Shown: positions 3,100-64,000 of the stretch, piece after piece
Position numbering within the stretch: the first letter of the stretch is position 1
Layout of the letters: every line of letters starts with the position of its first letter
From: Mesorhizobium norvegicum
GTDB lineage: Bacteria > Pseudomonadota > Alphaproteobacteria > Rhizobiales > Rhizobiaceae
NCBI RefSeq assembly: GCF_004919685.1
Contig: NZ_SMYZ01000039.1
Span: 19,072-83,071 of the forward strand
Length of the DNA stretch: 64,000 nt
Reading direction: 5' to 3'
Notes under the pieces: model-generated
Databases searched by the model: none
Told to the model about the DNA's origin: nothing
What the model saw: only the letters and a program-made list of their open reading frames with translations
Made by a program: the position numbers and the translations under genes

Positions 3100-3128
3100 A
3101 TTTCCTCAAGGGGAATCAAGCGATTAAG

Positions 3129-18580: not shown

Positions 18581-18582
18581 GC

Positions 18583-19944: not shown

Positions 19945-19945
19945 G

Positions 19946-20341: not shown

Positions 20342-20351
20342 CGCGCCGACC

Positions 20352-23545: not shown

Positions 23546-23557
23546 CCGATGGCCCCC

Positions 23558-23854
23558 TCAGACCGTGAGATGCGCCGGGATGCGCAGATGCCGGCGAACG
23601 ACGTCGGCGAAAAGCGGATCGCGCTTGGCGGCCCAGACGGCGGCAACGTGGCCGATCGCCCAGATTGCGAGGCCGACGAGCCACAGACGCAGCCCCAGCC
23701 CGACGGCGCCGGCGAGCGTCCCGTTCATGATCGCAATGGCGCGCGGGGCGCCGCCGAGCAGGATCGGCTCGGTCAGCGCCCGGTGCACGAGGACCGAATA
23801 ACCCGGCACCGCGTAGTCCGGCATTGACCCGCTCTGTTCGACCAAACCCGCCAT
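23558..23854 (-). CDS. trbD: TrbD, VirB3-like membrane protein
   Basis: A 98-residue VirB3/TrbD protein: 'YSVLVHRALTEPILLGGAPR' at residues 20-39, then a long hydrophobic segment ('LAGAVGLGLRLWLVGLAIWA') and 'AAKRDPLFADVVRRHL'. It associates with the VirB4-type ATPase encoded next. ATG 23854 chosen; it overlaps the trbC stop. The frame runs far upstream antisense to nothing recognisable. Confidence 0.92.
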   Translation of the reverse strand: MAGLVEQSGSMPDYAVPGYSVLVHRALTEPILLGGAPRAIAIMNGTLAGAVGLGLRLWLVGLAIWAIGHVAAVWAAKRDPLFADVVRRHLRIPAHLTV

Positions 23855-24186
23855 CAGATCAGCGCTCCGCCGCCGAACGAGAAGAACGACAGGAAGAAGC
23901 TCGACGCCGCGAAAGCGATCGACAGGCCGAACACGATCTGGATGAGCCGGCGGAAGCCGCCCGACGTGTCGCCGAAGGCGAGCGTCAGGCCGGTGACGAT
24001 GATGATGATCACCGCCATGATCTTGGCGACCGGGCCTTCGATCGACTGGAGGATCTGTTGCAGCGGCTGTTCCCACGGCATCGACGAGCCGGAGGCAAAA
24101 GCAGGCGCGGCCATCACCAGGATGAGCGTGGGAACGGAAACGGTCATGGCGAGACGATGGCGCGCGAGGCGCAGGCGTTGGATCAC
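23854..24186 (-). CDS. trbC: TrbC, VirB2-like pilin
   Basis: A 110-residue prepilin. Signal peptide cleavable near 'VMAAPAFASG' (about residue 31), then the mature pilin with two hydrophobic helices ('VAKIMAVIIIIVTGLTLAFG' and 'LIQIVFGLSIAFAASSFFLS') joined by a short polar loop. It overlaps trbB by 4 bp and trbD by one base. Maturation probably needs the TraF peptidase encoded at 32 kb. Confidence 0.92.
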   Translation of the reverse strand: MIQRLRLARHRLAMTVSVPTLILVMAAPAFASGSSMPWEQPLQQILQSIEGPVAKIMAVIIIIVTGLTLAFGDTSGGFRRLIQIVFGLSIAFAASSFFLSFFSFGGGALI

Positions 24187-25199
24187 GGATTTTCTCCTTC
24201 AGGGCTTTGGATGAGCAGGGGCGAACTTTCGTCGCCCTCGATGACGGCTGGCGCGACGCGGTAATCACCGTCCGGGCGAAGGCCATCGACACGGGCAAGT
24301 TCGGACAGCCGGCGCGCGGAGCCGCGGCCGGAAAGGACGGCAACCAGGTCGATCGTTTCGGCGATCAGCGCGCGTGGAACCGTGACGACGGCTTCCTGGA
24401 TGAGCTGTTCCATCCGTCGCAGCGCGCCAATGGCGCTGCCGGCGTGGATCGTGCCGAGGCCGCCGGGGTGGCCGGTGCCCCAGGCCTTGAGCAGTTCGAG
24501 CGCCTCGGCTCCGCGCACTTCGCCGACCGGAATGCGGTCGGGGCGCAGGCGCAGCGATGAACGAACGAGATCGGAGAGCGACGCGACGCCGTCTTTCGTT
24601 CGCATCGCAACGAGATTGCGCGCGGCGCATTGCAGCTCGCGCGTATCCTCGATGATGACGACGCGATCGGCGGTTTTGGCCACTTCGGCCAACAGCGCGT
24701 TGATCAGCGTGGTCTTGCCCGTGGATGTGCCGCCAGCGACCAGAATATTGGCGCGGGTGATAACGCCCTGGCGCAGCGTCTCCGCCTGGCGCGCCGACAT
24801 GATCCCGGTCGCGACATAATCTTCGAGGGTGAAGATGGCGACGGCAGGCTTGCGGATCGCGAAGGCGGGTGCTGCGACGACGGGAGGAAGAAGCCCCTCA
24901 AACCGCTCCCCCGTCTCGGGCAGTTCGGCCGAGACGCGTGGGGCGCCGGCATGGACTTCGGCACCGACATGATGAGCGACGAGGCGAACGATGCGTTCGC
25001 CGTCCGCAGCCGACAGACGCTCTCCTGTGTCGGACAACCCCTCGGACAACCGGTCAATCCACAAACGGCCATCGGGATTGAGCATCACCTCGACGATGCT
25101 CGCATCGTCGAGATAGCTCGCGATCGCGGGTCCGAGCGCTGTGCGCAACATACGTGCGCCGCGCGCCAGACCTTCTGAACTGTGATGCGAAGCTGCCAT
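24183..25199 (-). CDS. trbB: TrbB, VirB11-type secretion ATPase
   Basis: A 338-residue hexameric traffic ATPase. Visible: '[19 protein letters not shown]', Walker A '[20 protein letters not shown]' near residue 165, Asp box '[20 protein letters not shown]', '[20 protein letters not shown]' (Walker B/His-box region) and '[20 protein letters not shown]'. ATG 25199 ('[10 protein letters not shown]') chosen; the 39 codons upstream lack family similarity. First gene of the trb operon, so its promoter should be in 25200-25417. Confidence 0.93.
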
Positions 25200-25417
25200 C
25201 CTGTCCCCGTTTCGATCCGGGGGGAACATGGGCGGCCCCTGGACGGGGATGATTAAGAGAACCGCATCTCGAGTGGTTTCAACACCTATATCGAGGCGTA
25301 GTGGCGTAGCGTGCAAATACAGGAGATTGGCGGTGCGGACCTGTAATCAAGGCCGGCGATCTTCAGGCAAGGGCGGCGCTCGCCGTCAATTGTGCGCTCG
25401 TGGGCAAAGCCGTCTGA

Positions 25418-25735
25418 TCAAGCGGCTTCAGCACGAGTCGACCGTCGAGGCTTGTGGCGAACCACCACGTCAACCTTGTAGTCGAGCCGGTCCAGACAGC
25501 GAACCAGCCTGTCTATTGAAAACTTACCCGTGCGCCCGGTGGCGATCGCGGAGACGTCGGGCTGTTTCATTCCGAGCAGTTCAGCCGACTTCGCCTGGGT
25601 CAGGCGCCGGCGCTTGATAATGGCGCGGATCTCGCGGGCCAGCTTGGCCTTGAGCAATTCCTCTTCGGGATTGTCAAAGCCGAGGTCCGCAAACACGTTG
25701 CCGCTGCTCACTTCGGCGGTGATGTCTTCTGTCAT
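25418..25735 (-). CDS. XRE-family antitoxin (HigA/RelB-type TA partner)
   Basis: A 105-residue protein with a Cro/C1 helix-turn-helix: 'EIRAIIKRRRLTQAKSAELL', 'GMKQPDVSAIATGRTGKFSI', followed by 'LDRLDYKVDVVVR'. Its ATG (25735) overlaps the stop of the toxin gene by 4 bp (toxin-first order, as in higBA). It probably neutralises the RelE-like toxin and represses the pair. Located between traG/copG and trbB, where it could stabilise the element. Confidence 0.85.
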   Translation of the reverse strand: MTEDITAEVSSGNVFADLGFDNPEEELLKAKLAREIRAIIKRRRLTQAKSAELLGMKQPDVSAIATGRTGKFSIDRLVRCLDRLDYKVDVVVRHKPRRSTRAEAA

Positions 25736-26106
25736 GACTTTGTTCCTTTCCCATAGTTTTCGCGGTAGTGCGCCTCGGCTGCCTTCAATCGCACTGTCAC
25801 GACATCGATTTCGTGCTTGGGTGTCTCCCTGCCCTTCTTCGACTTCTTCTGGAAGCAATGAAGCACGTAGATCACCCCGGCAAAGCGCACCGCATAGACG
25901 GCCCGGTAGGTATCTCCGTCGAAGTCGTCGACCACCTCGAGGATGCTGCGGCCCCCAAAGCCTTTCAGGGCTTTGACAGCCGGGTGCTCCTCACCATTCT
26001 GGGCGTCGTTGATTGCGACACCCATCAATCGGCGAACATCGACCGGAAACTCGCGCAGGTCGCCCTTCGACGATCCCATCCATACTGCGGGCTTTTGGTT
26101 TTTCAT
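25732..26106 (-). CDS. RelE/HigB-like toxin (phage Gp49-like family)
   Basis: A 124-residue protein matching the 'phage-derived Gp49-like'/HigB toxin family: 'PAVWMGSSKGDLREFPVDVR' at the start, 'VKALKGFGGRSILEVVDDF', 'YRAVYAVRFAGVIYVLHCFQ' and 'KKSKKGRETPKHEIDVVTVR', the conserved basic tail that contacts RNA or ribosome. Predicted mRNA interferase. ATG 26106 preferred over 26160 for domain fit. Co-transcribed with the XRE antitoxin. Confidence 0.85.
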   Translation of the reverse strand: MKNQKPAVWMGSSKGDLREFPVDVRRLMGVAINDAQNGEEHPAVKALKGFGGRSILEVVDDFDGDTYRAVYAVRFAGVIYVLHCFQKKSKKGRETPKHEIDVVTVRLKAAEAHYRENYGKGTKS

Positions 26107-26173
26107 TCTCACTTGCCTTATAGCATACAGACTATAATTTTCAACGAAAAATCCTGACACCGCTTAAGGCCAT

Positions 26174-26629
26174 TTAGCCCACGGGCCTGCTGGGCTGCAC
26201 TGTGTCCAGGCCGCCATCGATGTCCTCGGAGATTTCCTGCCGAAGCTTTGGACCTTTCGCCAGGCGCCGACCGAGCGCGGTGACGAAGCCATCATAGCGC
26301 TCGCCCGCCTTGGCATGGGCAGCCTGCGCCGCGGGCTCGGGCAACGCTGGTGTTGTCGCCAGCCAGAAGCGTACGAAAACGGCGAGCGTCTCCACCGCAA
26401 TTCCTACATCGCGCTCCTGGCGTGCCATGCGCCGATCGATCTGGTCGAGCCGCTTGGTGATCGCCGCCTCCTGTCGCTCGGCGGCATCGGGTGAGAGGAA
26501 CGACTCGATGGCCGCCTCGGCGACGAGCGACCGTGAAAGATCTCGTCGCGCCGCATGTTCGGCAAGCCTGCTCATCACCCTCGGATCGAGATAGACGGAC
26601 AGGCGTTTTTTGCGCGGTGCCTTTGCCAT
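26174..26629 (-). CDS. CopG-family ribbon-helix-helix protein
   Basis: A 151-residue protein with an N-terminal RHH DNA-binding motif ('KKRLSVYLDPRVMSRLAEHA', then 'RRDLSRSLVAEAAIESFL') and a helical remainder ('EAAITKRLDQIDRRMARQ'). In trb-type ICEs this gene always accompanies traG and may be a relaxosome or accessory transfer factor. It begins 7 bp after the traG stop, so they are translationally close. ATG 26629 chosen. Confidence 0.82.
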   Translation of the reverse strand: MAKAPRKKRLSVYLDPRVMSRLAEHAARRDLSRSLVAEAAIESFLSPDAAERQEAAITKRLDQIDRRMARQERDVGIAVETLAVFVRFWLATTPALPEPAAQAAHAKAGERYDGFVTALGRRLAKGPKLRQEISEDIDGGLDTVQPSRPVG

Positions 26630-26636
26630 CGGAGCC

Positions 26637-28619
26637 TCACATATCCACACCGTCGCCGGGGTCGAGCGACGCCTGCCGCGCAATGCCTTGCATGAGGCGC
26701 GTCAGTCGACGGTTGCGGGCAACACTGTCTTCCACGTCGTCCTGGTGATCGATCTCGAATTCGTTCTCGGTCGGCGGCTTCACGGCCAACTCGACGCGAC
26801 TGAGCTCAGGTTGCCTACGACGTTCGGAATCAGTTTGGTCCTCATCCGCGGCCGCAGGCGACGACGTGGCTTCGGCAATCCGGGGACGGGAAGGCAGAGG
26901 CAGGCTGGTCCAGTCGTCATGTCTCCCCTCCACTGCCGCCACCAACGCCGGAGGCGGCAGGATACGTTCCCGGAAGCGAGCATCCTCATGATAGCGCGCC
27001 TTTTTGGCGCGGATCGGCGGCGCACCCGAGACCATGACAATCTCGTCGGTGGCCGGCAGTTGCATCACTTCACCAGGCGTGAGCAGCGGGCGAGCCGTCT
27101 CGGAGCGGGAGACCATGAGATGACCGAGCCACGGCGACAGCCGGTGGCCGGCATAGTTCCTCATGGCCCTCATCTCAGTCGCTGTTCCCAGCGCGTCGGA
27201 CACGCGCTTGGCGGTGCGCTCATCATTGGTGGCAAAGCTTACCCGGACGTGGCAGTTGTCGAGGATTGAGTTGTTTGCGCCGTACGCCCTCTCGATCTGA
27301 TTGAGGGATTGAGCGATCAGGAAGCTTTTCAGCCCGTATCCGGCCATGAAGGCGAGCGCCGACTCGAAGAAGTCGAGGCGGCCAAGCGCCGGGAACTCGT
27401 CAAGCATCAGAAGCAGCCGGTGCCCTTTCGCCCTCACCTGGAGATCTTCGGTCAGGCGGCGACCGATCTGATTAAGGATCAGGCGAATGAGCGGCTTGGT
27501 CCGGTTGATGTCGGACGGCGGCACGACGAGGTAGAGTGTCGTCGGATGCTTGTCGTCGACAAGATCGGTGATGCGCCAGTCGCAGCGGCGCGTGACCTCG
27601 GCCACGACAGGATCGCGATAGAGGCCAAGGAACGACATGGCGGTGGAGAGCACGCCAGAGCGCTCGTTGTCGGATTTGTTCAAGAGCTCCCGCGCGGCGC
27701 TGGCGATGACCGGGTGCGGACCGCCCTCACCCAGATGCGCTGTTTTCATCATCGCGGACAGCGTCGATTCGATCGGACGCTTTGGATCGGAGAGGAAACC
27801 GGCGACGCCGGCAAGCGTCTTGTCCTGCTCGGCGTAGAGGACATGCAAGATCGCGCCGACCAGAAGGGCATGGCTGGTTTTCTCCCAATGGTTTCGCCGC
27901 TCGAGCGAGCCTTCGGGATCGACCAGGATGTCAGCGATGTTTTGCACGTCGCGGACTTCCCATTCGCCGCGGCGCACCTCGAGCAGTGGATTGTAGGATG
28001 AGGATTTCGGATTGGTGGGATCGAAGAGCAGGACCCGGCCATGCCTGGCGCGGAAGCCTGCGGTGAGCTGCCAGTTTTCGCCCTTAATGTCATGGACGAC
28101 GGCTGAACTCGGCCAGGTGAGCAGCGACGGGACGACAAGGCCGACGCCCTTGCCCGAACGCGTGGGCGCAAAGCACAGCACATGCTCCGGCCCGTCGTGG
28201 CGCAGATAGGCGCTGTCATATCGCCCAAGCACCACACCATCGGGGTCGAGAAGGCCAGTTGCCTTGACCTCCTGCTTGTCGGCCCAGCGGGCGGAGCCGT
28301 AGGTCTCGACCTTCTTGGCCTCGCGAGCCCGCCAGACCGACATGCCGATGGCGACGGCGACGCAGGCGAAACCGCCGGAAGCCGCGATAAAGGCTCCCTC
28401 CACGAAGATCGACGGCGCGTAGGCATCGAAGCCATACCACCACCAGAAGAAGGACGGCGGAAGGTAAAATGGAAAGCCCAGGATACGGAACCACGGCCTG
28501 CCGAGCTCGGGCTGGAACGCCAGGCGCCAGGCCACCCACTCCGTCGCGCCCCAGGTCGTGAACAGTACGATCGCGACGACCGCGAGGATCTGGCCCCAGA
28601 GTATCTTGGTGGCGGACAT
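26637..28619 (-). CDS. traG: TraG, VirD4-type coupling protein
   Basis: A 660-residue type IV coupling protein. Two N-terminal transmembrane stretches ('ILAVVAIVLFTTWGATEW' and 'IFVEGAFIAASGGFACVAVA'), Walker A 'LCFAPTRSGKGVGLVVPSLL' near residue 160, 'SSAVVHDIKGENWQLTAGFR', Walker B 'HRLLLMLDEFPALGRLDFF' and 'GYGLKSFLIAQSLNQIERAY'. It brings the RlxS-DNA complex to the Trb channel at the inner membrane. Positioned between relaxase and CopG genes. Confidence 0.95.
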   Translation of the reverse strand: MSATKILWGQILAVVAIVLFTTWGATEWVAWRLAFQPELGRPWFRILGFPFYLPPSFFWWWYGFDAYAPSIFVEGAFIAASGGFACVAVAIGMSVWRAREAKKVETYGSARWADKQEVKATGLLDPDGVVLGRYDSAYLRHDGPEHVLCFAPTRSGKGVGLVVPSLLTWPSSAVVHDIKGENWQLTAGFRARHGRVLLFDPTNPKSSSYNPLLEVRRGEWEVRDVQNIADILVDPEGSLERRNHWEKTSHALLVGAILHVLYAEQDKTLAGVAGFLSDPKRPIESTLSAMMKTAHLGEGGPHPVIASAARELLNKSDNERSGVLSTAMSFLGLYRDPVVAEVTRRCDWRITDLVDDKHPTTLYLVVPPSDINRTKPLIRLILNQIGRRLTEDLQVRAKGHRLLLMLDEFPALGRLDFFESALAFMAGYGLKSFLIAQSLNQIERAYGANNSILDNCHVRVSFATNDERTAKRVSDALGTATEMRAMRNYAGHRLSPWLGHLMVSRSETARPLLTPGEVMQLPATDEIVMVSGAPPIRAKKARYHEDARFRERILPPPALVAAVEGRHDDWTSLPLPSRPRIAEATSSPAAADEDQTDSERRRQPELSRVELAVKPPTENEFEIDHQDDVEDSVARNRRLTRLMQGIARQASLDPGDGVDM

Positions 28620-28646
28620 AGAAGCGGTCCTTTCTTCAACATGAGA

Positions 28647-30386
28647 TTAGAGGCCGAGGCCTCGCTTGCGGCCAAAACTCCAGTCGATGCCGTCGTCATT
28701 GCGAGCGACGCCAGAGACGTGGCGACCAAGATGTTTTTCCAGGGACGGCGTCCAAGGCACCAGTTGGAAACCGAGGCCGTCATCGATCATGGCGAAGCGG
28801 CCGGAGGCAAGCAGGAAACGTTGCCGGTAAGAACCGGCGACGAACTCGCCGCTGCGGGCGCGGTTGAAGGGCTGGCCGGTTTCGGCCGAGAGCTTTTCGC
28901 CGAGCGCCTCCAACTCGCGGCGACGCAGCGTGTCGATCAGGTTGCGGGTGAAGGTTGTGCGTTGGCCATGCCGCTCGCCGAGGCCCTGTTCGACGAGATG
29001 GTCGGCGCGGTGCTGCATCGCTTGCCGTACCTCGGCGCCAAAGCCGCCTTGCGACAACGCAAACGGTTCGCGGGCGATGTTTTGACGGTCAAGCCAGGTC
29101 GCGCCGGCGGCGGTAACCTGCTGCTCAATATCGAGATCGGAACGGACAGCGAGCGCCACGCGCCCATGTCCCAGCGCGTCATGGAACTTGCGCAGTTCGA
29201 CGATCGAACCCGGAGCGCTGTCGCCTGCGGCGTCGAGGTCGGACAGCTTGATGTGATGTGTGCGGCCGTCGATGCCATCGACCAAGGCGTAGGCGGTGCC
29301 CTTCAGCTCATCATCGAGACCGCGGTCGACCAGCCGACCGACGATCGGCGTGTCGAGGCGCTCCGCCGCCAGCACATAATTCGCCGAGCCGCGCTCGATG
29401 CCCTGTTCTGTCAGGGCGCGGTGCATCCGCTTGATGATGTCACCGCGTTCGCCAAGCTCGCGCAGCGTCGCCTCGGCCTTGTCGTCGATCATCCATTGGC
29501 CCGGGCCGACCTGTTCGGCAAGGCCAAGTGTTTCGAGCTTGCGCACCCGCCCGACCTTCAGCGCGTGATACTCGTCAGGCTGGGCGTTCGGGGCGGAGGC
29601 AAGGTCAATGACGCCTCGGTCGCGGCCATCGCGAACAAGCTGCCGGTCAAGCTGGGTCCAGCGCTCGGCTTCGACCTGGCGCTGCAGATTGCGGCGGATG
29701 TCGAGATCGGTGCGCGGGCCGAGCTCCTGGGTAACAAGATCGGCGGCGCGGGCGCGCATCCCCTCCTTGATGTAATCGCGGGAGATCACAAGATCCTGCC
29801 CGTCATCAGTGTGGCCGCGCAGGATGATATGAAGGTGCGGATTGTCGGTGTTCCAGTGATCGACGCCCGCCCAATCGAGCTTCGTCCCGAGATCCTTTTC
29901 CATCTGGCGCATCAGATCGCGGGCGAAGGATTTGAGGTCCGCCATATCGACGGCATCTTCAGGCGAGACGATGAAGCGGAAGTGGTGCCGATCACCGCCG
30001 CACCGCTCGGCGAAAGCACCGCCATCCAGCTCACCGGTCTCCGGCCCGAACAGCCTTGCCTTCTCCCCGTCACGGGTGACGCCCTCGCGGCGCAGATAGG
30101 TGAGATGGGCGGCAAGCGGCGCGGCGCGCACGTGATGGCGCACCAGCCTTGTATTGATGATCACGGTGCGCGAGCGGCCGGCGAGGAGACGATTGGCGCG
30201 CACGCTCGCCGAGCGGCCACGCCCGAACGTGGAGCGATTGCCCTGACTGATCCGGCCGGAGCTAGAGATGCAGGCGCCGGCCTTCTGGGCGGCGGCAAGC
30301 GCCTGCGCGATGAAGGGCCTGACGCGCTGGGCGCCGGACGATCGGATACGGCCAAGCCGGATGCGGAAACCATCCTCGCTGGTCAT
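28647..30386 (-). CDS. RlxS-type relaxase (relaxase plus DUF3363)
   Basis: A 579-residue conjugative relaxase with a C-terminal DUF3363 domain, the type known as RlxS in Mesorhizobium ICEs. The relaxase core shows 'AAPLAAHLTYLRREGVTR', 'HHFRFIVSPEDAVDMADLKS' and the metal-binding motif 'DHWNTDNPHLHIILRG' (H-x-H). DUF3363 covers about residues 230-579. It nicks oriT, stays on the 5' end and pilots the strand through TraG. ATG 30386 chosen because it lies 244 bp from the next upstream gene, leaving room for oriT. Confidence 0.9.
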   Translation of the reverse strand: MTSEDGFRIRLGRIRSSGAQRVRPFIAQALAAAQKAGACISSSGRISQGNRSTFGRGRSASVRANRLLAGRSRTVIINTRLVRHHVRAAPLAAHLTYLRREGVTRDGEKARLFGPETGELDGGAFAERCGGDRHHFRFIVSPEDAVDMADLKSFARDLMRQMEKDLGTKLDWAGVDHWNTDNPHLHIILRGHTDDGQDLVISRDYIKEGMRARAADLVTQELGPRTDLDIRRNLQRQVEAERWTQLDRQLVRDGRDRGVIDLASAPNAQPDEYHALKVGRVRKLETLGLAEQVGPGQWMIDDKAEATLRELGERGDIIKRMHRALTEQGIERGSANYVLAAERLDTPIVGRLVDRGLDDELKGTAYALVDGIDGRTHHIKLSDLDAAGDSAPGSIVELRKFHDALGHGRVALAVRSDLDIEQQVTAAGATWLDRQNIAREPFALSQGGFGAEVRQAMQHRADHLVEQGLGERHGQRTTFTRNLIDTLRRRELEALGEKLSAETGQPFNRARSGEFVAGSYRQRFLLASGRFAMIDDGLGFQLVPWTPSLEKHLGRHVSGVARNDDGIDWSFGRKRGLGL

Positions 30387-30446
30387 CGCGAAGGCCCCGC
30401 ACATCGTACCAAGGCACGGAAATCACAGGTAAATCGGAGTTCTGGC

Positions 30447-54426: not shown

Positions 54427-55392
54427 ATGAATCCGACAGCAGTTGCGCGATCTCTCGAACACTCGATCCCCAAGCCGATTGCGGCTGTGATCACTATTTG
54501 CACCCGTCGAAAAATGGCGCAGGTGCCCCTCGCGGCGACGGCAGTTTCTTTGCCTGTGGGTTCACAAGAGGTGATTCAAGCCGCCTGGAACACGACGCTG
54601 CGGGCACTGCCAGTCGCGGCTTCCGCCGGCGCTGTCTACGCTGGTCGAGGGTTTGGACTCGCGACCCAGGCCGCAACGATGGCCGAGGCCAAACTTTACG
54701 TCCTTTCTGCCGGGTTGGGCCTGGTGGATACGAACCGGCAGATCCCACTCTATGGGCTCACTGTCTCTGGGGGGCACGCTGAATCCGTCGCAGCCAAGGT
54801 ATCAAATGAGTTCGATGCCGCCGCCTGGTTTTCCAGCCTTATGTCAGGTTCTTATTCGGATCAATGGATAGATGTATTCGGCCAAGGTTCTGAGCGAGTG
54901 CTCATCGCGCTTACCCGTCCGTATGCCGAGATGGTAGGTAAGAGCTTGAGTGAACTCGGACCTCAAACATTGGCGCGGCTGCGCATCTTCGGCGCATCTC
55001 TTGCATCGGCATTGCCAGCCACACTCCACCCATCGGTTGCTCCTTACGACAGTCGTTTGGACGCTATCTTCCCGGGTACCCGGACCGACTTTTCTCAACG
55101 GGCCCTGCTCCATTTTGTTCGTTTGGTGGCGACCGAACGCGACGCATGCGACCGAGACGCCGATTACGCAGCCGTCGAGGCTGCCATCGGAGGAGTGGCG
55201 GCACCCAACCGCCCACGCCGCCCACGCCGCAATGACTTGGAGATTGTTCAGCTAATTCTGGCGCGTCTTCAGACGGAATCAGGCATTGCGAAAATCCTCC
55301 GCGCACTTCGCGATGAAGAGGGTGTTGCATGCGAGCAAGCGCGGTTTAGCCGTCTTTACCGCCTCGCCATCGAGCAAAGGGAAGTCGCATGA
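54427..55392 (+). CDS. DpdC candidate (YaaA/DUF6884-like)
   Basis: A 321-residue protein. The N-terminal half resembles the YaaA/DUF6884-type fold: strand 'IAAVITICTRRK', then 'GAVYAGRGFGLATQAATMAE', 'AKLYVLSAGLGLVDTNRQIP' and 'YGLTVSGG'. The first gene of an operon with two dpdB-like genes and dpdA, overlapping the next by 4 bp. In Salmonella Montevideo, DpdC converts preQ0 already in DNA to the amido form (dADG). I recall DpdC as a YaaA/DUF328-like protein, which this fits; the identification rests on that recollection and on context. ATG 54427 is the only start that keeps the first strand. Confidence 0.6.
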   Translation: MNPTAVARSLEHSIPKPIAAVITICTRRKMAQVPLAATAVSLPVGSQEVIQAAWNTTLRALPVAASAGAVYAGRGFGLATQAATMAEAKLYVLSAGLGLVDTNRQIPLYGLTVSGGHAESVAAKVSNEFDAAAWFSSLMSGSYSDQWIDVFGQGSERVLIALTRPYAEMVGKSLSELGPQTLARLRIFGASLASALPATLHPSVAPYDSRLDAIFPGTRTDFSQRALLHFVRLVATERDACDRDADYAAVEAAIGGVAAPNRPRRPRRNDLEIVQLILARLQTESGIAKILRALRDEEGVACEQARFSRLYRLAIEQREVA

Positions 55393-56528
55393 CGCGTCCC
55401 CGAAAGGCCAAGGAGGCAATGCTCGCTGTTCGTGCCGTCCGCACCGAACAGGCCGACAAAGCGGTCTATGCTTTCTTTGTTGCTGGTGCCGACCTCCTCA
55501 AGTTTGCTGAGATTAGCCGCGTTCACCGGGACGGCGAAGGGTCTTTGCAGGGATTTCAGCGCAAAGGCATTAAGAGCCACGTCCAGGCGATCACAGAGTT
55601 TCTTGATCAGGGGCCAGTGCTCTTCCCGAACGCCATTATTCTCGCGCTCTCGCCGCACGCGCGTTTCACCCAGGCTAGGGGAGAAAAACCCAGCGGCGAC
55701 GTAAGATCCTGCGAGGCGGGAACATTGCGCATCCCGCTTCCAAGCGACGGCCCAAAGGCGGCTTGGATTGTCGATGGCCAACAGCGTTCGATTGCCCTAT
55801 CTCAGGCTCGGAACAAGAGCTTTCCTGTTCCCGTCGTCGCCTTTGTGTCGGAGGAGTTATCCGTCCATCGCGAACAGTTCATCTTGGTCAACAAGGCAAA
55901 ACCGCTCGACCCGCGGCTGATCAACGAATTGCTTCCAGAGGTAGAGACCGCTTTTCCGAGGGATTTATCGTCTCGGAAAATCCCGAGCGAACTCGTCAAT
56001 CTCCTCCACACTTCATCTGATTCTCCATTCCAAGGCTTTATCAAACGGGTCTCCGAAGATTCCACGACCGCCGTTGTCACTGACTCGGCATTGATTAAGG
56101 CGATACGTAACAGCATCAATAGCGCTCTTGGCTCGCTCGCTCCGTATAAAGCGACAGCAGAGTGTCCCGCCGATGTCGATGCAATGTACCGCGTACTTGT
56201 GGCCTACTGGACGGCCGTGCGTGACGTCTTTTCTGAGGCGTGGGGTCGCCCACCGACCGAAAGCCGGCTTATGCACTCAGCCGGTATCGAGGCGATGAGT
56301 CTTTTGATGGATCGCATGATGTCGCGCGCTGCTCCTGGTACGGACCTGCTGCTCCACGCGACCGAGTCGCTGTCGCGCATTGCTCCATACTGTCGCTGGA
56401 CAAGCGGCAGGTGGGCGGAGTTGCAGCGCGATTGGAATGAGATTCAGAACGTTGGGCGCGACATCAAGCTCTTGTCGGGCCATTTAGCACGCCTGGACCA
56501 CATGCACGCCTTCGCCAAGGTGGCGTGA
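55389..56528 (+). CDS. DGQQR-domain protein, DpdB-like, first copy
   Basis: A 379-residue member of the DndB/DpdB 'DGQQR' family (ParB/sulfiredoxin-like fold). The signature 'AWIVDGQQRSIALSQA' lies at residues 125-140, preceded by 'GFQRKGIKSHVQAITEFLDQ' and 'LFPNAIILALSPHARF', followed by 'REQFILVNKAKPLDPRLINE'. DpdB assists DpdA in placing preQ0 into DNA; DndB regulates phosphorothioation. It overlaps the DpdC candidate by 4 bp and dpdA by one base. A second family member follows dpdA. Confidence 0.85.
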   Translation: MTRPRKAKEAMLAVRAVRTEQADKAVYAFFVAGADLLKFAEISRVHRDGEGSLQGFQRKGIKSHVQAITEFLDQGPVLFPNAIILALSPHARFTQARGEKPSGDVRSCEAGTLRIPLPSDGPKAAWIVDGQQRSIALSQARNKSFPVPVVAFVSEELSVHREQFILVNKAKPLDPRLINELLPEVETAFPRDLSSRKIPSELVNLLHTSSDSPFQGFIKRVSEDSTTAVVTDSALIKAIRNSINSALGSLAPYKATAECPADVDAMYRVLVAYWTAVRDVFSEAWGRPPTESRLMHSAGIEAMSLLMDRMMSRAAPGTDLLLHATESLSRIAPYCRWTSGRWAELQRDWNEIQNVGRDIKLLSGHLARLDHMHAFAKVA

Positions 56529-57817
56529 TGCGGTTCGTTTTCGCAGACAGCGTCGATACGATCGACCCCGAATATGACTTCGTCGCGGACCGCAACGGCG
56601 CTGGCCGATCAGTTCATCGCGATGACCAGTATCCTCACGAATTCCTCGAACATGCGCCCTATGACGGAATCCTGGTTTCCCGCGGCATCGTCGGCGACGC
56701 GCGGCAGCCAGGAAAATATTCGGAAGCACAGTTGATGCGCTTTCGTCGCGAGGGCGCCCGACGTTTCCTGCGCTATCCGCTCGATCGGTTTCCAGGAAGC
56801 TTGATGATGGGCGACTGCGGCGCCTTCACCTATCGGAATCTACCGGAGCCACCGTATAGCGCCGACGACACAGCGGAATTCTATGCCGATGGCGGCTTCA
56901 CGCATGGTTGTTCGCCCGATCACCTTATCTTTGACTTTGACGACCTGGGTTTGAAGCGGACCATGGACGACGTGCCGGAGGATGTGCGTCGTCGCTACGA
57001 AATCACCCTTCAGAATGCAACCGAGTTCTACAAATCCGCCGCAGGCCTAGGCCCAGACTTCACCCCAATGGGCGTAATACAGGGATGGTCGGCTGAGAGT
57101 ATGGCGCAGGCCGCCTCCAGCCTGGCCAGCATGGGATACGACTACTTAGCCATCGGCGGCACCGTGCCGTTGAGCATCGACCAGATCCGCCGGATCCTAC
57201 AAGCACTGCGTGACACTCTCCCCGATCAGGTTCGACTGCATCTTCTTGGATTCGGGAAAATCGAGGAACTGGCTGTGCTGGAACAGTACCGCGTGACCAG
57301 TTTCGATACGACGTCACCGCTCTTGCGCGCTTTCAAGGATGCCCGAAAGAATTACTGGGTGAGGACGCCCGATGGCGACCTCTCTTACTACACCGCAATT
57401 CGCATTCCGCAGGCCACTCAGAACAACAAACTCAAGCATAAGGCTCTTGAAGGCAGCCTCAACCAGGAAGATGCGAGGCGTCTTGAAGACGCCGCGCTTC
57501 GGGGCGTGCGTGCTTACGCTGACGGAGGCGCGACCCTGGACCAAAGCCTTGATGCCGTGATGGAGTATTGGGCCGCCCTGAACTGGCACGATGAGGCGTC
57601 GCCAAGCCGACGTGCCGACGCCGCAACCCGACAGCGCAAGGTCTACGCCCACACCCTTGGCGATCGTCCCTGGGAGCGATGTGGCTGCCGAGTTTGTCGG
57701 GAGAGCGGCGTGGAGGCTGTGATCTTTCGTACCTCAAATCGCAACAAGCGACGCGGCATCCATAACCTCCACGTCTTTCACACCCATCTAAGCGAATTCC
57801 GACAGGAGAGCCTATGA
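56528..57817 (+). CDS. dpdA: DpdA, TGT-like DNA deazaguanine transglycosylase
   Basis: A 429-residue relative of bacterial tRNA-guanine transglycosylase. Aspartate site 'MMGDCGAFTYR' (general-acid-type region), 'TPMGVIQGWSAESMAQAASS', 'GYDYLAIGGTVPLS' (the G-G binding region) and 'VTSFDTTSPL' with the probable nucleophilic Asp. A zinc motif C-x-C-x2-C with a distal His lies in 'WERCGCRVCRESG' and 'GIHNLHVF'. In dpd systems it swaps guanine in DNA for preQ0. ATG 56528 overlaps the previous stop; GTG 56525 is also possible. Confidence 0.88.
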   Translation: MRFVFADSVDTIDPEYDFVADRNGAGRSVHRDDQYPHEFLEHAPYDGILVSRGIVGDARQPGKYSEAQLMRFRREGARRFLRYPLDRFPGSLMMGDCGAFTYRNLPEPPYSADDTAEFYADGGFTHGCSPDHLIFDFDDLGLKRTMDDVPEDVRRRYEITLQNATEFYKSAAGLGPDFTPMGVIQGWSAESMAQAASSLASMGYDYLAIGGTVPLSIDQIRRILQALRDTLPDQVRLHLLGFGKIEELAVLEQYRVTSFDTTSPLLRAFKDARKNYWVRTPDGDLSYYTAIRIPQATQNNKLKHKALEGSLNQEDARRLEDAALRGVRAYADGGATLDQSLDAVMEYWAALNWHDEASPSRRADAATRQRKVYAHTLGDRPWERCGCRVCRESGVEAVIFRTSNRNKRRGIHNLHVFHTHLSEFRQESL

Positions 57818-58902
57818 GCAACAACCATATTCTTCGGTTTGACGCGCTCGCGCCGGTTCAGAGCCAAAAACTGGCGGTTTTTACGTTTATTGCGAATGCC
57901 ACTGAAGTGGCACGCATCGCTCGAATCGAGCGGGCGGGGCGCGATGACGGCGGGGCGCTTCAAGGTTTTCAGCGGCCGCAGATCGCGGGCCACATTCGCG
58001 AAATCCGAGATTATCTCGAAAAGCCGAACTCGATTTTACCCAACGCCATCGTGGTCGCGTTCATGGGGCAGGCTCGGCTAGAGCCAGCAGCAAACCCGGA
58101 AAGTCGACTCTGCCAGCTGGTCATCGATACGTCCAACGGCCCGCCGGGTTGGATCGTCGATGGGCAACAGCGCTTTACGGCGCTTTCGGAACTACGAAGC
58201 CGTGACTTTGAAGTGCTCGTGTCGGGCTTTCTCTGCGAGACTGAGGAGGAACTGCAAAAACAGTTCATCCTCGTGAATAACACGCGCCCCCTACCAAAGG
58301 CACTGGTCTACGAACTGCTCCCGAAGGTAGGAGATCTGCCGCACCGCATGTCGAGCCGGTCGCAAGCAGCACTTGCCACGGAGGCTCTTAACTATCGCAG
58401 GGGCTCGTCGCTGAGGGGACTAATCAAGCAGCAAACCAATCCAAAGGGGGTAATCCGGGACACGGTGCTGCAGCGAGTTATTATGAACTCGTTGAGTGAC
58501 GGAGCGCTGCGGCTTTACGCCGGCGAAGACAAACTCTTGCTTGAACACGGCGTCACAATGATGAGCGAGTTCTTTCATGCAGTTCAACACGTCTTTGCAG
58601 AAGACTGGGTTGGCAAGACACCCAAAACCTCCCGGTTGATTCATGGCACAGGAATTGTCGCTCTCGGGTATGTCATGGACTTTCTCAACAGCGTTACAGG
58701 TGCCGCAACGCGTGGCGAATTCGCCAATGGCTTGCGACTGCTGAAGGGAAAGACCGCTTGGAGCGAGGGCGAGTGGGAGTTCGGCGCCGAGCGCCGACGT
58801 TGGAACGGACTCCAGAACGTTCCATCCGATGTCCGCCAATTAACGTTTCACCTAGTCCAGGTCATCAAGCGGCGCCTGGCCGAATCCGCAAGGGCAGCCT
58901 GA
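57814..58902 (+). CDS. DGQQR-domain protein, DpdB-like, second copy
   Basis: A 362-residue paralogue of the gene before dpdA. Signature 'PGWIVDGQQRFTALSELRSR' with DGQQR at residues 116-120, preceded by 'GFQRPQIAGHIREIRDYLEK' and 'ILPNAIVVAFMGQARL', followed by 'QKQFILVNNTRPLPKALVYE'. Overlaps dpdA by 4 bp. The two copies are clearly diverged, so they are not a recent duplication and may form a heteromer with DpdA. Confidence 0.85.
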   Translation: MSNNHILRFDALAPVQSQKLAVFTFIANATEVARIARIERAGRDDGGALQGFQRPQIAGHIREIRDYLEKPNSILPNAIVVAFMGQARLEPAANPESRLCQLVIDTSNGPPGWIVDGQQRFTALSELRSRDFEVLVSGFLCETEEELQKQFILVNNTRPLPKALVYELLPKVGDLPHRMSSRSQAALATEALNYRRGSSLRGLIKQQTNPKGVIRDTVLQRVIMNSLSDGALRLYAGEDKLLLEHGVTMMSEFFHAVQHVFAEDWVGKTPKTSRLIHGTGIVALGYVMDFLNSVTGAATRGEFANGLRLLKGKTAWSEGEWEFGAERRRWNGLQNVPSDVRQLTFHLVQVIKRRLAESARAA

Positions 58903-58907
58903 AAGCC

Positions 58908-59540
58908 ATGAGTTACGCAGTCAAAGAAATGTTCTATTCGCTGCAGGGCGAAGGTCGTCACACTGGGCGGCCGGCCGTTTTCTGCCGTTTTGCGGGTTGT
59001 AACCTATGGAGTGGCCGGGAGCGCGACCGAGCGAAAGCCGCCTGCAATTTTTGTGACACCGATTTTGTTGGCGTCAATGGCATTGGCGGTGGACGGTTCA
59101 ACGATGCGTCTTCTTTGGCAATCGGAATTGAGAATATGTGGGGCGGTGGAGCGTCCAGACGATTCGTCGTTCTCACAGGCGGTGAACCGCTTCTGCAGGT
59201 GGGGGATGAGCTTGTGTCGGCACTCCATGATCGCGGGTTCGAAATTGCCTTAGAGACTAATGGCACGCTGGCGGCCCCCAACAGGATTGATTGGATTACC
59301 GTTAGCCCCAAGGGGGCGACAACCTTGGCGCAAACTTCGGGAAATGAGCTGAAACTGGTGTTTCCGCAAGCCGGTCTAGATCCTGAGGCCTTTGAGAAAC
59401 TCGCGTTTGACCACTTCCTCCTGCAGCCACTCGACGGCCCCCAACTCGAGGCAAATACAGCGGCGGCGATAGCTTATTGCCTGCAACATCCACACTGGCG
59501 TCTGTCTCTGCAGACCCATAAATTCATGGGGATTCGATAA
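58908..59540 (+). CDS. queE: QueE, 7-carboxy-7-deazaguanine synthase
   Basis: A 210-residue radical-SAM enzyme that rearranges 6-carboxytetrahydropterin to 7-carboxy-7-deazaguanine. 'MFYSLQGEGRHTGRPAVFCR' is the standard N-terminus. The iron-sulphur cysteines show spacing C-x14-C-x2-C ('GCNLWSG' ... 'ACNFCDTDF'), the unusual spacing known from Burkholderia QueE rather than C-x3-C-x2-C. 'VVLTGGEPLLQ' and 'ALETNGT' bind SAM and substrate. ATG 58908 is 5 bp after the DpdB-like gene. Confidence 0.92.
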   Translation: MSYAVKEMFYSLQGEGRHTGRPAVFCRFAGCNLWSGRERDRAKAACNFCDTDFVGVNGIGGGRFNDASSLAIGIENMWGGGASRRFVVLTGGEPLLQVGDELVSALHDRGFEIALETNGTLAAPNRIDWITVSPKGATTLAQTSGNELKLVFPQAGLDPEAFEKLAFDHFLLQPLDGPQLEANTAAAIAYCLQHPHWRLSLQTHKFMGIR

Positions 59541-59911
59541 TGTACGAACTCAGCAAGGAGTTTCGGTTCGATGCAGCGCACACACTTCACCGCACCATCG
59601 ACGTCGAGCCGAGCCGTAGGATTCATGGCCATTCCTACCGCGCAGAAGTAGTAGTTCGCGGTCGCCCTGACCCAGAGAGCGGCATGGTCATCGATCTGGG
59701 GCTGCTCGATCAGGCCCTCGAAGAGGCTCGCGACGGTCTCGATCACCGTTTTCTAGATGAGATAAATGATCTTGGACCCGCGACCATGGAAAACCTTTCG
59801 TCGTGGATCTGGCGGAAAGTTGCGCCAATCTGTCCGAACTTATGGCGCGTAACCGTAAGACGCGATAGCGACACCGGGGCTTGTAGTTTCTATGGTACGG
59901 ACGCCCAATGA
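59540..59911 (+). CDS. queD: QueD-like 6-carboxytetrahydropterin synthase, Cys missing
   Basis: A 123-residue PTPS/QueD family enzyme. Zinc ligands 'FDAAHTLH' and '[13 protein letters not shown]' are present, as are '[13 protein letters not shown]', 'LDHRFLDEI' and the late '[13 protein letters not shown]'. The catalytic Cys normally four residues before the HGH (C-x3-HGH) is replaced: the sequence reads '[10 protein letters not shown]', with Ser in that position. Either activity is altered or another residue substitutes. Start overlaps the queE stop by one base. Confidence 0.85.
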
Positions 59912-60609
59912 TGTCCGATTCTACCGCACTCGTACTCTTTTCGGGCGGTCAAGATTCCGCAACATGTCTGGCTTGGGCCCTAGATCGGTTCGAGCGCGTG
60001 GAGACGATTGGTTTTGATTATCGGCAGCGCCATCGCGCCGAGTTGGACGCTCGCGGCGCTTTCCGAGCTGGCTTGGAGCGTGATTTTCCGAAATGGGCCG
60101 CCAAGCTCGGGGAGGATCGGGTGCTGGATCTATCCGTGCTAGGCGAGATCAGCGAAACTGCTTTGACCCGTGAAGTTGAAATCGCAACGACCGAATCCGG
60201 GTTGCCGAACACGTTCGTGCCCGGGCGGAACATTATCTTCCTCACGTTTGCGGCTGCTGTCGCCTACCGTCGAGGTCTCAAGCATGTTGTGACCGGCGTT
60301 TGTGAAACAGACTTTTCTGGCTATCCGGACTGCCGTGATGACACAGTGAAAGCACTCCAGGTCGCACTCAACCTTGGCATGGAGCGCCGTTTCGTTCTTG
60401 AGACGCCGCTCATGTGGATAGACAAGGCACAGACATGGGCACTTGCCGAGCGACTGGGGGGAGCGGCTCTCGTTGATTTGATCCGGGAGCGCACTTTGAC
60501 TTGCTATCAGGGGGACACCGAGACAACCCACGAATGGGGTCGCGGATGCGGAGTCTGCCCAGCTTGCGAACTTCGAGCGAACGGTTTCACACGCTGGAAG
60601 ACGCCGTAA
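59908..60609 (+). CDS. queC: QueC, 7-cyano-7-deazaguanine (preQ0) synthase
   Basis: A 233-residue PP-loop ATPase: '[20 protein letters not shown]' at residues 8-27, '[18 protein letters not shown]', '[20 protein letters not shown]', '[20 protein letters not shown]' and the zinc-binding '[17 protein letters not shown]'. It converts the carboxy intermediate to preQ0, the base that DpdA inserts. Overlaps queD by 4 bp. No folE or queF in the window, so the element depends on the host for the first pterin precursor and does not go on to preQ1. Confidence 0.93.
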
Positions 60610-60824
60610 GAGTTCTCCCAGTTCCCATCGGCAACATGTTGTGCATCTTTCCCGGCGAAGGTAGCATTCCAGTTGCTTAGTGTTTAACGTCCACAGCGTT
60701 CTTTGGATCAACTTGCGGATTCACTTGAACGCCCTTTTCGGAGCTAATTAAGCCTCTCGCGCTCGAGGCTCCCCCGCTTGTACCGGGACCCGGAGTGGGC
60801 CTAGGTGAGGTACGAGGGGCTTTT

Positions 60825-63800
60825 GTGTCGGATTCGAAGTTATCGCCTGGTATGTTTGTCAGCCTTCCGGGACGGCGGGGTACCGGCAGGCTGCTTGCCG
60901 TCGAGGGAGAACAGTGCCGAGTCGCCCTGTTCCACTCCATTGACGAGATCGAAGAGTGCCGTTTCGACAGATCCGATTTAGGCCGCGCCTATTTGGGACC
61001 GCAGACCCGTGTCTATGTGCAAACTCCCAAGGGCTGGGCAATCGGCAGGGTAGTCGACTACGATCCCTCCGGTATGCCGTGGGTGGAGTACACGGTTCGT
61101 TTTCCGAATAATCACCTTGGTGACTTCAAGGAAAATCGCCTTCAGGTACGGGTGTTCGAACCACACGCCGACCCTAGCGACGTGCTCGCCCGCGGTGGCG
61201 GCGAGAGTCAGTTTCTGCATGATCGACGATGGGCCGCTTTGGAGAGCTCGGTGGCTTTGAGGGGGGCTAGCAAAGGTCTCACGGCCTTCTTATCCAGCAG
61301 AATTGAACTGGTCCCGCACCAATTTGCAGCCGTCCGTCGCGTGCTCACCGATTCCGTCCAGCGCTATCTGTTGGCCGACGAGGTCGGTATGGGAAAGACG
61401 ATCGAAGCGGGGGTTATCGCTCGCCAATGCCTAATCGATGATCCCGATCGATGCATTCGCGTGCTCGCACCATCGCCCCTGGTCAGCCAGTGGCGAACTG
61501 AACTAGAGGATCGCTGTGGCCTCGGCGAGTTCCCCGGACGCGTCGAGTACCTTGCCTTCAGCCAACTCGATGAGGCCAGGCTGCCCGCAGACCTCTTGAT
61601 CGTGGATGAAGCTCACAGCCTCTTGGCGGATGAAGCGCTGAATCGGGCGTTGCGCCGCCAAGCCCACGCCACGCCGCGGCTGCTCCTTCTGACAGCGACC
61701 CCTGTCCTCGGCGATCCAATGCGACTCCTCGACCTTCTTCACCTCCTCGATCCAGAGACCTACGGACCCGAGGACGTATCCAAGCTGGAGATGCGACTGC
61801 AGATCGGCCGCGATCTTGGGCGACTGCTCATGAGCCTGTCCGATGACGCCCCGGTGCTGATGGTAAGGCGCGCGGCCATCGAAATCGGGAGCCGCATCCC
61901 TGAGGACGAACTTGTTGGAGGACTGAAGGACTTGATTGTGGCGGGTGGGGAAGAGGCTACCGCGGCCACCGCGGATTTACGCCAGCATCTGGCTGACACG
62001 TATCGCGTGCACCAACGCCTAGTACGCGCCCGACGCAGCGACGCGGTACTCTATTTTCGCCCGCGCGGACAGCTGGTGGATGGCCGACGGGAACACGTCC
62101 TAGAAGAGGTCGACGAAGACCTTCGCTGGCCTGACATATTGGCCGCGATCGAAGACTGGCGGGAGGACGTCCGTGCCGAACCGGATCCCGACAACTGTTC
62201 CGCTGGGCGCGCTGAAGCGGCCAGACATCTCTTCAAGCAAGTGGAGGCTATCGGTTTCAATCTGGACGCGGCTGCTGCTGACGTGACGTTGCCAGTCGCC
62301 GTGGCGGCCATCGCGGGTCGGGATCCTGGGACCCGCAACGCGGCGGCGGTAGCTTCGGATAGTCTGGCGACCCTGCGCCGGCGCCTGCACAGCCAAGGCG
62401 AACGCCATCCCAAGATTGTCGCCTTCGCGTCGCGTCCGGAGACCGTGGCCGCATTCGCTTGTGCTTTGGCTGAACGGGGCGAGAGTGCACTAACCTTCAC
62501 GGAGGCCTCCACCAATTCCGACATTGACGCAGCCATCGCGCGCTTCCGCACGGATTCAAACATCTCGGTGTTGATTTGCGATCGCGCCGGAGAGGAAGGC
62601 CTCAATCTCAACTTCGCCGACGCCCTGCTGCATTTGGATCTTCCCTTCTCGGTGATCCGAATGGAGCAGCGGATCGGCCGGTTGGATCGATTCGGCCGCA
62701 CTAAACCAATGGTTCGGCAGAGAATCCTTCTTCCCAGCGACGACGATGCAAGCCCATGGGCGGCCTGGCAGGAACTATTGACCAAAGGGTTTGGGATCTA
62801 CGAGCGGTCCACGAGCGACGTTCAATTTATCCTGGACGGACTTGAAACGGAAATTGCGCAAGCTTTCCTCGAAGGCGGCGCAACCGGCCTTCGCGAAATG
62901 ATCGAGCCGGTTCGGAACAGGTTGCAGGAAGCGCGGCAGCTTGCAGATGAACAGTACGCCTTGGATGCGGTGGCGCTGGCGGATGACGCTGGGAAAGTGA
63001 TTGAGGCCATCGAGGACGCGGAGGCCGATGAGAAGATGCTCGAACTCGCGGCGGAGGGGTGGCTGTTGAAGGGGTTGCAATTGAAGCGGTTGCGTGTGGA
63101 GAATGAGGAGGATCCGTTCCGGTACGACTGGGTGAAAGAGACCCTTCTGCCGAGGGAACCGTGGGAGCGCGAGTTCGGGCTCGAGCGGGAGCGCCCGCTC
63201 ACTTGGCGGCGGCGTGTCGCATCCAGGCGAGGTGCGGCTCTTTTAAGGCCGGGGGCTCGCGTTATCGACGCCATGGAACGGGCGCTTAGGTGGGATGATC
63301 GCGGCTCAGCGTTCGCTACATGGCGCGTCGATCCCAGTCTGGAAGGCAGCGACATCGCCTGGAGTGGCTTCCGGCTTTGCTTTGTTGTCGAGGCCCAAAT
63401 CAGCAAGGATCTTGAGGTATTCCACTCTGCTGACGTGGACGGACTTTCCCGCCGAGCACAGTCGTTCCTCTCGCCGTGGACGATGCAATTCCACCTCGAT
63501 CCGAAAGGGCTGACTGCCCCACCGCATTTACTGGATATCCTCAAACGCCCCTATGTGCGGGAGCAGGCGTCAAACGGGGCTCGCGACATCAACCTGTCGA
63601 GCCGCTCCGACCTTTTTGCCCGTATCGTTGAGCCTTCGGTATTTGCCGCCACCTGTGTCGAGATTCGCGAACATGCCGACGCTATGTTGCGGAGACAGGC
63701 CGAGTATCTCGCTCAAACCTGTAAGGCAGTGCGTCTTGCCGAGCAGGATTTTCGGCGCCGGGCCCGTCGCCAGGACAGCCAAGGGATCGCGGAAGCGAGG

Positions 63801-63899
63801 GCGGTTGTCGAGGCGGTTCGTGCTCCTAGGGTTCGCCTGGATTCGATCGGTTTCTTTGTGCTTTCAAGCCAAGCTCCGTCACGGGTTGGGTTGCCATGA
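60825..63899 (+). CDS. dpdE: DpdE-like SNF2-family helicase
   Basis: A 1024-residue protein. An N-terminal SH3-like module ('GMFVSLPGRRGTGRLLAVEG') is followed by an SNF2 ATPase: Walker A 'LLADEVGMGKTIEAGVIARQ' near residue 188, 'ADLLIVDEAHSLLADEALNR' (DEAH), 'LLLLTATPVLGDPMRLLDLL' and C-lobe 'VIRMEQRIGRLDRFGR'. Layout resembles RapA/HepA and DpdE, which in Salmonella is needed for restriction of unmodified DNA. GTG 60825 chosen because of GAGGGG six bases upstream; GTG 60795 is possible. Confidence 0.82.
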   Translation: MSDSKLSPGMFVSLPGRRGTGRLLAVEGEQCRVALFHSIDEIEECRFDRSDLGRAYLGPQTRVYVQTPKGWAIGRVVDYDPSGMPWVEYTVRFPNNHLGDFKENRLQVRVFEPHADPSDVLARGGGESQFLHDRRWAALESSVALRGASKGLTAFLSSRIELVPHQFAAVRRVLTDSVQRYLLADEVGMGKTIEAGVIARQCLIDDPDRCIRVLAPSPLVSQWRTELEDRCGLGEFPGRVEYLAFSQLDEARLPADLLIVDEAHSLLADEALNRALRRQAHATPRLLLLTATPVLGDPMRLLDLLHLLDPETYGPEDVSKLEMRLQIGRDLGRLLMSLSDDAPVLMVRRAAIEIGSRIPEDELVGGLKDLIVAGGEEATAATADLRQHLADTYRVHQRLVRARRSDAVLYFRPRGQLVDGRREHVLEEVDEDLRWPDILAAIEDWREDVRAEPDPDNCSAGRAEAARHLFKQVEAIGFNLDAAAADVTLPVAVAAIAGRDPGTRNAAAVASDSLATLRRRLHSQGERHPKIVAFASRPETVAAFACALAERGESALTFTEASTNSDIDAAIARFRTDSNISVLICDRAGEEGLNLNFADALLHLDLPFSVIRMEQRIGRLDRFGRTKPMVRQRILLPSDDDASPWAAWQELLTKGFGIYERSTSDVQFILDGLETEIAQAFLEGGATGLREMIEPVRNRLQEARQLADEQYALDAVALADDAGKVIEAIEDAEADEKMLELAAEGWLLKGLQLKRLRVENEEDPFRYDWVKETLLPREPWEREFGLERERPLTWRRRVASRRGAALLRPGARVIDAMERALRWDDRGSAFATWRVDPSLEGSDIAWSGFRLCFVVEAQISKDLEVFHSADVDGLSRRAQSFLSPWTMQFHLDPKGLTAPPHLLDILKRPYVREQASNGARDINLSSRSDLFARIVEPSVFAATCVEIREHADAMLRRQAEYLAQTCKAVRLAEQDFRRRARRQDSQGIAEARAVVEAVRAPRVRLDSIGFFVLSSQAPSRVGLP

Positions 63900-64000
63900 C
63901 CCTAAGGGGAGCAAGGGCTTTCGCTGCCCTGGGACGCGCGCTCAGCGGGGAAGCGCAAGAGCCGTGGATGTCACCCGACAACCCATCCTTTGATCGTCTG
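63896..64000 (+). CDS. Start of the next dpd-operon gene (cut by window)
   Basis: An open frame beginning at ATG 63896, overlapping the DpdE stop by 4 bp (ATGA), and open to the window edge (35 codons: 'MTLRGARAFAALGRALSGEA'). Translational coupling suggests it belongs to the restriction part of the dpd operon (DpdD or another Dpd protein), but too little is visible to name it. Confidence 0.6.
   Translation, partial: MTLRGARAFAALGRALSGEAQEPWMSPDNPSFDRL

Follow-up and report, generated by a model that had tools for sequence, protein, structure and literature searches.

Organization of the dpd locus

The stretch of DNA considered here, hereafter the window, encompasses 64,000 nucleotides of Mesorhizobium norvegicum (bases 19072-83071 of contig C186, in a genome of 8.27 Mb and 249 contigs) and carries a Dpd-type operon, predicted to modify DNA, with two different genes for DpdB. 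Between positions 54427 and 63899, all on the + strand, are found dpdC, dpdB1, dpdA, dpdB2, queE, queD, queC and dpdE, every gene being supported by a profile; an earlier sequence-only reading had proposed precisely this arrangement of two DpdB-like genes flanking dpdA and followed by queE-queD-queC, with dpdC before and dpdE behind. The genes of the modification module are adjacent in this single operon, i.e., dpdC (54427..55392; PADLOC DpdC, 1.4e-75; aligned with 15 orthologs), whose product is a predicted nitrile hydrolase of 2'-deoxy-7-cyano-7-deazaguanosine (dPreQ0) yielding 2'-deoxy-7-amido-7-deazaguanosine (dADG), dpdA (56525..57817; NCBIfam NF041059, 536 bits), which encodes a predicted DNA-guanine transglycosylase of the tRNA-guanine transglycosylase (TGT) family, and, upstream and downstream of dpdA, dpdB1 (55389..56528) and dpdB2 (57814..58902), encoding two putative nucleoside triphosphatases (NTPases) of the ParB fold. 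Both latter proteins, first recognized by their DGQQR P-motif (residues 129-133 and 116-120), were assigned to the DpdB family by profile search, with 453 and 382 bits against NCBIfam NF041060. The preQ0 (7-cyano-7-deazaguanine) genes are queE (58908..59540; TIGR04508, 338 bits; 7-carboxy-7-deazaguanine synthase), queD (59540..59911; PF01242 (PTPS), 2.6e-31; 6-carboxytetrahydropterin synthase family) and queC (59908..60609; PF06508, 8.4e-70; TIGR00364, 210 bits; preQ0 synthase). The cut-offs were 300 bits for NF041060, 200 for NF041059, 240 for TIGR04508 and 150 for TIGR00364; QueD is a clear PTPS member yet stays under the QueD equivalog cut-off (75 vs 89 bits). Then come dpdE (60795..63899; PADLOC DpdE, 9e-204), for a SNF2 helicase of the restriction module, and the first bases of dpdF (63968..64000, +; PADLOC and NCBIfam matches), a gene that continues beyond the window. 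Seven of these genes, and not six as initially counted, are tightly packed, with 4-base overlaps between dpdC and dpdB1, dpdB1 and dpdA, dpdA and dpdB2, and queD and queC, a 1-base overlap between queE and queD, and a gap of 5 bases between dpdB2 and queE, provided that queE starts at the internal ATG 58908, which sits within a longer mechanical open reading frame from 58758. The start of dpdC is uncertain and may lie 20-30 codons further downstream, since most orthologs, as trimmed, start about 18-30 residues later.

DpdA contains the motifs GDCGAF (96), FDTTSPL (260) and CxCxxC (386) as well as H413, and has a solved relative in the PDB (7ui4, E 1e-90). The catalytic Asp and zinc-ligand residues known from work on TGT are present in DpdA and invariant across 9 sequences, and DpdA aligns with 7ui4; the one ordinary TGT of the genome is encoded on another contig (C189). 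Regarding preQ0, the proposal that the operon makes its own stands from the QueD step on, and "self-contained" proved too strong. Indeed, folE was not found in the operon and the sole GTP cyclohydrolase I match of the genome lies on contig C208, so that FolE must be supplied by the host, in which two further full-length QueC matches are also found (C236, C232). The QueC of the operon keeps the CxxCxxC zinc site, with a longer spacer before it, and the canonical QueC motifs given in PMC13329287.

The 20 kb that follow the window (L008) contain dpdF, dpdG, dpdH, dpdI, dpdJ, dpdK and dpdD, ending at L008:14212 (PADLOC, NCBIfam), just where the sequence-only reading had advised looking for DpdD and DpdF-DpdK. 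The DpdI match is weak (7e-4) and its assignment mainly positional. With dpdD and dpdE-K forming the restriction module, all Dpd components from A to K lie in one run and the Dpd system is therefore complete. The same order dpdC-A-B-E-F-G-H-I-J-K-D, with a tRNA gene and a tyrosine integrase adjoining, is found in the leuX island of E. coli GE3 (L139), presumably of the same type as the system of Salmonella Montevideo; its dpdC, "hypothetical" in the record, was recognized by a profile made for this analysis. However, within the stretch shown the GE3 island encodes one DpdB and lacks queE-D-C, whereas here dpdB1 precedes dpdA and queE-D-C follow dpdB2.

Two DpdB paralog clades

DpdB1 and DpdB2, labelled by position only (before dpdA, B1; after dpdA, B2), share 33% identity across 348 residues. 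In a FastTree phylogeny of 194 rows, built without the two DpdB2 pieces of one locus (L107) and without sequences shorter than 290 residues, all 87 B1 rows group together, as do all 88 B2 rows plus one extra copy. IQ-TREE, run on 56 of the 194 rows, recovers one B1 clade (100/100) and one B2 clade that includes two orphan copies (99/88), with the single DpdBs outside both clades and one outgroup row (L061) placed apart from the other outgroup rows. The two subtrees are similar, as judged by eye only. By these phylogenies, DpdB1 and DpdB2 are two old paralog clades; no description of them was found in the literature searched, which includes passages of PMC12839542 and PMC12458937 and does not cover Thiaville 2016, Yuan 2018 and Gedara 2023. 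As to the kinship of the single DpdB, FastTree groups it weakly with B2 (support 0.79) and IQ-TREE does not place it. The single form is represented by three sequences, all enterobacterial and almost identical to each other, which were thus counted as one.

In the alignment, 66 columns are at least 90% fixed in B1 as well as in B2; the residue is identical between the groups in 55 of them, among which are those of GFQR, DGQQR and QFxLxN, and differs in 11; for DpdB rows of more than 300 residues and more than 300 bits, all five DGQQR columns stand at 1.00 in B1 and in B2. Directly past the invariant Asn, B2 sequences share the consensus NNTRPLPKxLIYE, with the Lys and Tyr present in 88/88 rows, and the single enterobacterial DpdB reads NSTKPLPKTLLYE, close to B2; this local motif is the only feature that argues for the single DpdB being B2-type. 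The corresponding B1 consensus, NKAKPLxxRLINE, is changed. Regarding selection, the ratios of nonsynonymous to synonymous substitution rates (dN/dS) against the closely related locus of a Mesorhizobium metagenome-assembled genome (MAG; L054) are 0.047 for DpdB1, 0.055 for DpdB2, 0.056 for DpdA and 0.254 for DpdC. As estimated from this comparison, both DpdBs are under strong purifying selection, DpdB1 being as constrained as DpdA. That the island would be decayed or inactive is hence very improbable: the reading frames gave no sign in its favor, all 15 dpd and que genes being open, and dN/dS is about 0.05 for dpdB1, dpdA and dpdB2.

The predicted structures (predicted local distance difference test, pLDDT, of 84 for DpdB1 and 91.8 for DpdB2) both weakly resemble ParB N-domains and, for DpdB1, also sulfiredoxin. 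A PDB sequence search with DpdB1 and DpdC returned no relative, matches to apolipoprotein and BiP being taken as chance. DpdB has been described as a ParB-like ATPase, perhaps dispensable in some clusters (PMC12839542), and losing the Arg of DGQQR abolished the ATPase activity of DndI, which has the ParB fold but belongs to a different system (PMC11662687). Because the motifs are kept, selection is purifying and the models are ParB-like, both DpdB copies look like working NTPases, of which DpdB1 looks the altered one. As the two have the shared motifs fixed alike, we no longer favor the idea of one copy being dead and regulatory. DndB, from phosphorothioation systems, has the ParB fold and the DGQHR/DGQQR motif too, and the Pfam DndB profile matches both copies; in contrast to DndB, both fall within NCBIfam DpdB above cut-off, and they score far under the 450-bit cut-off of TIGR04172, the dnd-associated DGQHR family (60 and 38 bits).

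Occurrence among relatives and the roles of DpdB1 and DpdB2

Genome contigs were scanned with a DpdA alignment and the best 80 of 290 relatives were followed up, a sample that leans to close ones (DpdA at least 46% identical). Intact copies of DpdB1 and DpdB2 occur together in 77 of the 80 loci, and DpdC was found in 77 as well (missing in L082, L084 and L108). The form dpdC-dpdB1-dpdA-dpdB2 is thus the norm among close relatives, and the view of the second DpdB and the coupled preQ0 genes as an unusual variant had to be given up; indeed, PMC11888242 distinguishes 146 gene compositions of dpd islands, finds the genes for de novo preQ0 synthesis in about 27% of the islands and counts 801 additional copies of dpdB. 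Alphaproteobacterial loci such as the plasmid of Caulobacter sp. S6 (L039) and L054 share the core order C-B-A-B-queEDC, with DpdA 84-95% identical, although L054 has a convergent J-K-D and a membrane protein/HAD pair whereas the window has a codirectional E-F-G-H-I-J-K-D. The MAG that holds L054 carries a second dpd system on a separate contig (L107), the two DpdAs being 95% and 54% identical to that of the window.

Of 17 plasmid records with DpdA, 13 were opened: six have both DpdBs, one (Enterobacter) has a single DpdB, and for the other six (Acetobacter, Methylorubrum, three cyanobacteria and Paenibacillus) profiles found no DpdB in the stretch fetched, two of the three cyanobacterial records carrying distant DGQHR/DndB annotations. 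Another search gave two DpdB places in three of the four unopened records (Rhizobium, Azospirillum, Shinella). The Enterobacter C-A-B region has a match in 161 of 5426 E. coli genomes (in 159 across most of its length), and the one genome opened encodes a single DpdB. DpdB occurs in 3 of 398 genomes of an even phylum sample (two, two and one copies, the window's own genome included) and is absent from the 8 other same-genus genomes therein, while the class of the single-copy genome gives 2 of 369, both already found in the phylum sample. In a 385-genome class sample, DpdA is above cut-off only in the window's own genome, the 76 other matches being far below and looking like ordinary Tgt. Among viral contigs, DpdA alone had no match and the DpdA alignment led to three distant loci with no DpdB by profile in the stretches covered. 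A record labelled "Bacteriophage sp." (MT835580, L047) shares 99-99.9% identity over 17 kb with a Sphingomonas parapaucimobilis contig (L116) carrying C-B-A-B-queEDC; it is probably bacterial and mislabelled as phage. Euzebya, Nonomuraea, Variovorax and Myxococcus phage Mx4 (L140, L141, L142 and L048) also have DpdB-like genes, but no dpdA was found near them in the sequence fetched; the Variovorax gene adjoins a DUF6884 gene.

The genes around the core are less stable. On a quick DpdA tree of 74 loci (7 of 81 having too little downstream sequence), the adjoining restriction genes fall into seven arrangements with at least 33 changes, a rough count since flanks extend no further than 10 kb and one of the states is "none in reach". 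The preQ0 genes vary in order and number as well, with E-D-C in 47 of 81 loci and none found after dpdB2 in 8. In 25 of 95 dpdA loci, the window counted, they are followed by genes for a membrane protein and a HAD hydrolase (e.g., L043:12657-14313, L041:12076-13614 and L054), a pair absent from the window. The membrane protein resembles 2TM effectors of Pycsar and of cyclic-oligonucleotide-based antiphage signaling systems (CBASS) (PADLOC PycTM; two proteins tested, with 7.5e-7 and 5.5e-9), and 11 of the 25 loci show no dpdD-K gene within reach; the two genes may form an undescribed Dpd-linked effector pair.

Which roles the two DpdBs play can be argued from these data. Our first choice is a DpdB1-DpdB2 heteromer working with DpdA, to which we give about even odds: the related DndB is a homodimer (PMC4507180), and a paralog pair could hence form a heterodimer. 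A bolder version, which we hold tentatively and at somewhat less than even chances, sees a two-DpdB subtype with an obligate heteromer, two NTP sites with different work (for example, one firing the exchange, the other checking or releasing the DNA) and a core serving as an interchangeable marking unit for many restriction modules; the two sites might differ because DpdB2 keeps an ancestral-looking segment by the nucleotide site and that of DpdB1 is changed. Several observations weigh against our overall reading of the locus. Foldseek searches with the DpdB1 and DpdB2 models gave no match at E ≤0.001, the opened enterobacterial loci have one DpdB, and the constant co-occurrence and order of B1 and B2 could also arise from linkage. 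Moreover, three of the 80 loci lack one intact partner: L108 has neither dpdB1 nor dpdC, dpdB2 is broken in L107, and in Novacetimonas maltaceti (L109) only about 40 codons of dpdB1 are left between dpdC and dpdA (G746:C14:45262-45381), dpdB2 being whole. DpdB1 may therefore be dispensable in some loci, and the Novacetimonas maltaceti locus represents a natural test of the need for it.

These loci also bear on the idea that DpdB2 alone partners DpdA and that DpdB1 instead regulates transcription of the operon in the manner of DndB. DndB does regulate its own operon (PMC4507180), DpdB2 follows dpdA as does the single enterobacterial DpdB, both sharing NxTxPLPKxLxYE, which is altered in DpdB1, and DpdB2 occurs without DpdB1 in 2 of the 80 loci, one retaining the remnant. 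Nevertheless, we consider this idea unlikely, as DpdB1 retains the shared NTPase motifs and a constraint equal to that of DpdA, and the window holds no excess of DndB operator sequences (at most one mismatch; 9 found vs 9.7 expected), the single exact one falling inside dpdE (61761) and none lying directly before dpdC. Inverted repeats upstream of dpdC are weak, with one palindrome at the dpdC start common to L054. Slightly less likely still, in our view, is that DpdB1 and DpdB2 belong to separate DpdA complexes, each aimed at different DNA sites and together widening the target set. The 11 columns fixed differently and the changed segment past the Asn would fit it, as would the single DpdA of the island; however, on this view the loss of either copy should have little effect, yet 77 of the 80 loci retain the two intact, and the analysis gave no sign of site specificity.

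A predicted mobile marking and restriction system

The dpd genes sit within a stretch of about 76.6 kb between two perfect 46-bp repeats, as anticipated by the proposal of an integrative conjugative element (ICE). The left end (3055..3100, +) is the 3' half of a tRNA-Gly(GCC) gene and the right-hand copy lies at L008:15734-15779, adjoined, after dpdD, by a tyrosine integrase gene (L008:14266-15630, -). In between are a replication initiator and a conjugation block (15520..30404, -) encoding TrbI, CagX, TrbL, VirB4-like, VirB3 and VirB11-like proteins, a coupling protein and a DUF3363 relaxase, i.e., the integrase, attachment repeats at a tRNA, relaxase, coupling protein and type IV secretion genes expected of an ICE. 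The left flank with its tRNA matched 41 of 41 genomes, the window's own counted, the distant ones matching little beyond the tRNA. In three of 14 relatives' loci, the tRNA is immediately followed by the first part of the window's right flank (125-128 matching bases, counting the 46-bp repeat), the best of these empty sites being L157 of G759 (97.6%), and the other 11 match the repeat only. The tRNA-Gly repeat, the conjugation genes and this empty site in a same-genus genome support the location of the dpd system on an ICE, whose excision and transfer are predicted. A large serine recombinase gene (3236-5083) adjoins the left repeat, with the whole element between it and the tyrosine integrase. 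Directly before the dpd operon, the same element carries a CBASS (49640-53845) with a cyclase, an E2 protein, a phospholipase effector and divergent capH/capP-like regulators.

Taken together, the locus very probably represents a complete Dpd modification-restriction system on an ICE, with DpdA driven by DpdB1 and DpdB2 and preQ0 made by the element. By analogy with the known family, host FolE would provide the pterin precursor and QueD, QueE and QueC of the element would turn it into preQ0, which DpdA would swap for chosen DNA guanines, powered by NTP hydrolysis of DpdB1 and DpdB2. DpdC would then convert the nitrile to the amide, and DpdE-K together with DpdD would attack unmarked DNA.

Dpd is one of the few systems marking DNA by a whole-base swap, and the role of DpdB is only partly understood. 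To our knowledge, published work on Dpd centres on single-DpdB systems; a question of interest is what maintains two distinct DpdBs in so many others. Systems that naturally combine a DpdB resembling the single one with an altered second copy offer a clean handle on the role of this protein. Finally, the element of Mesorhizobium norvegicum illustrates that a whole Dpd system, preQ0 synthesis from the QueD step on and a CBASS can share one mobile unit.

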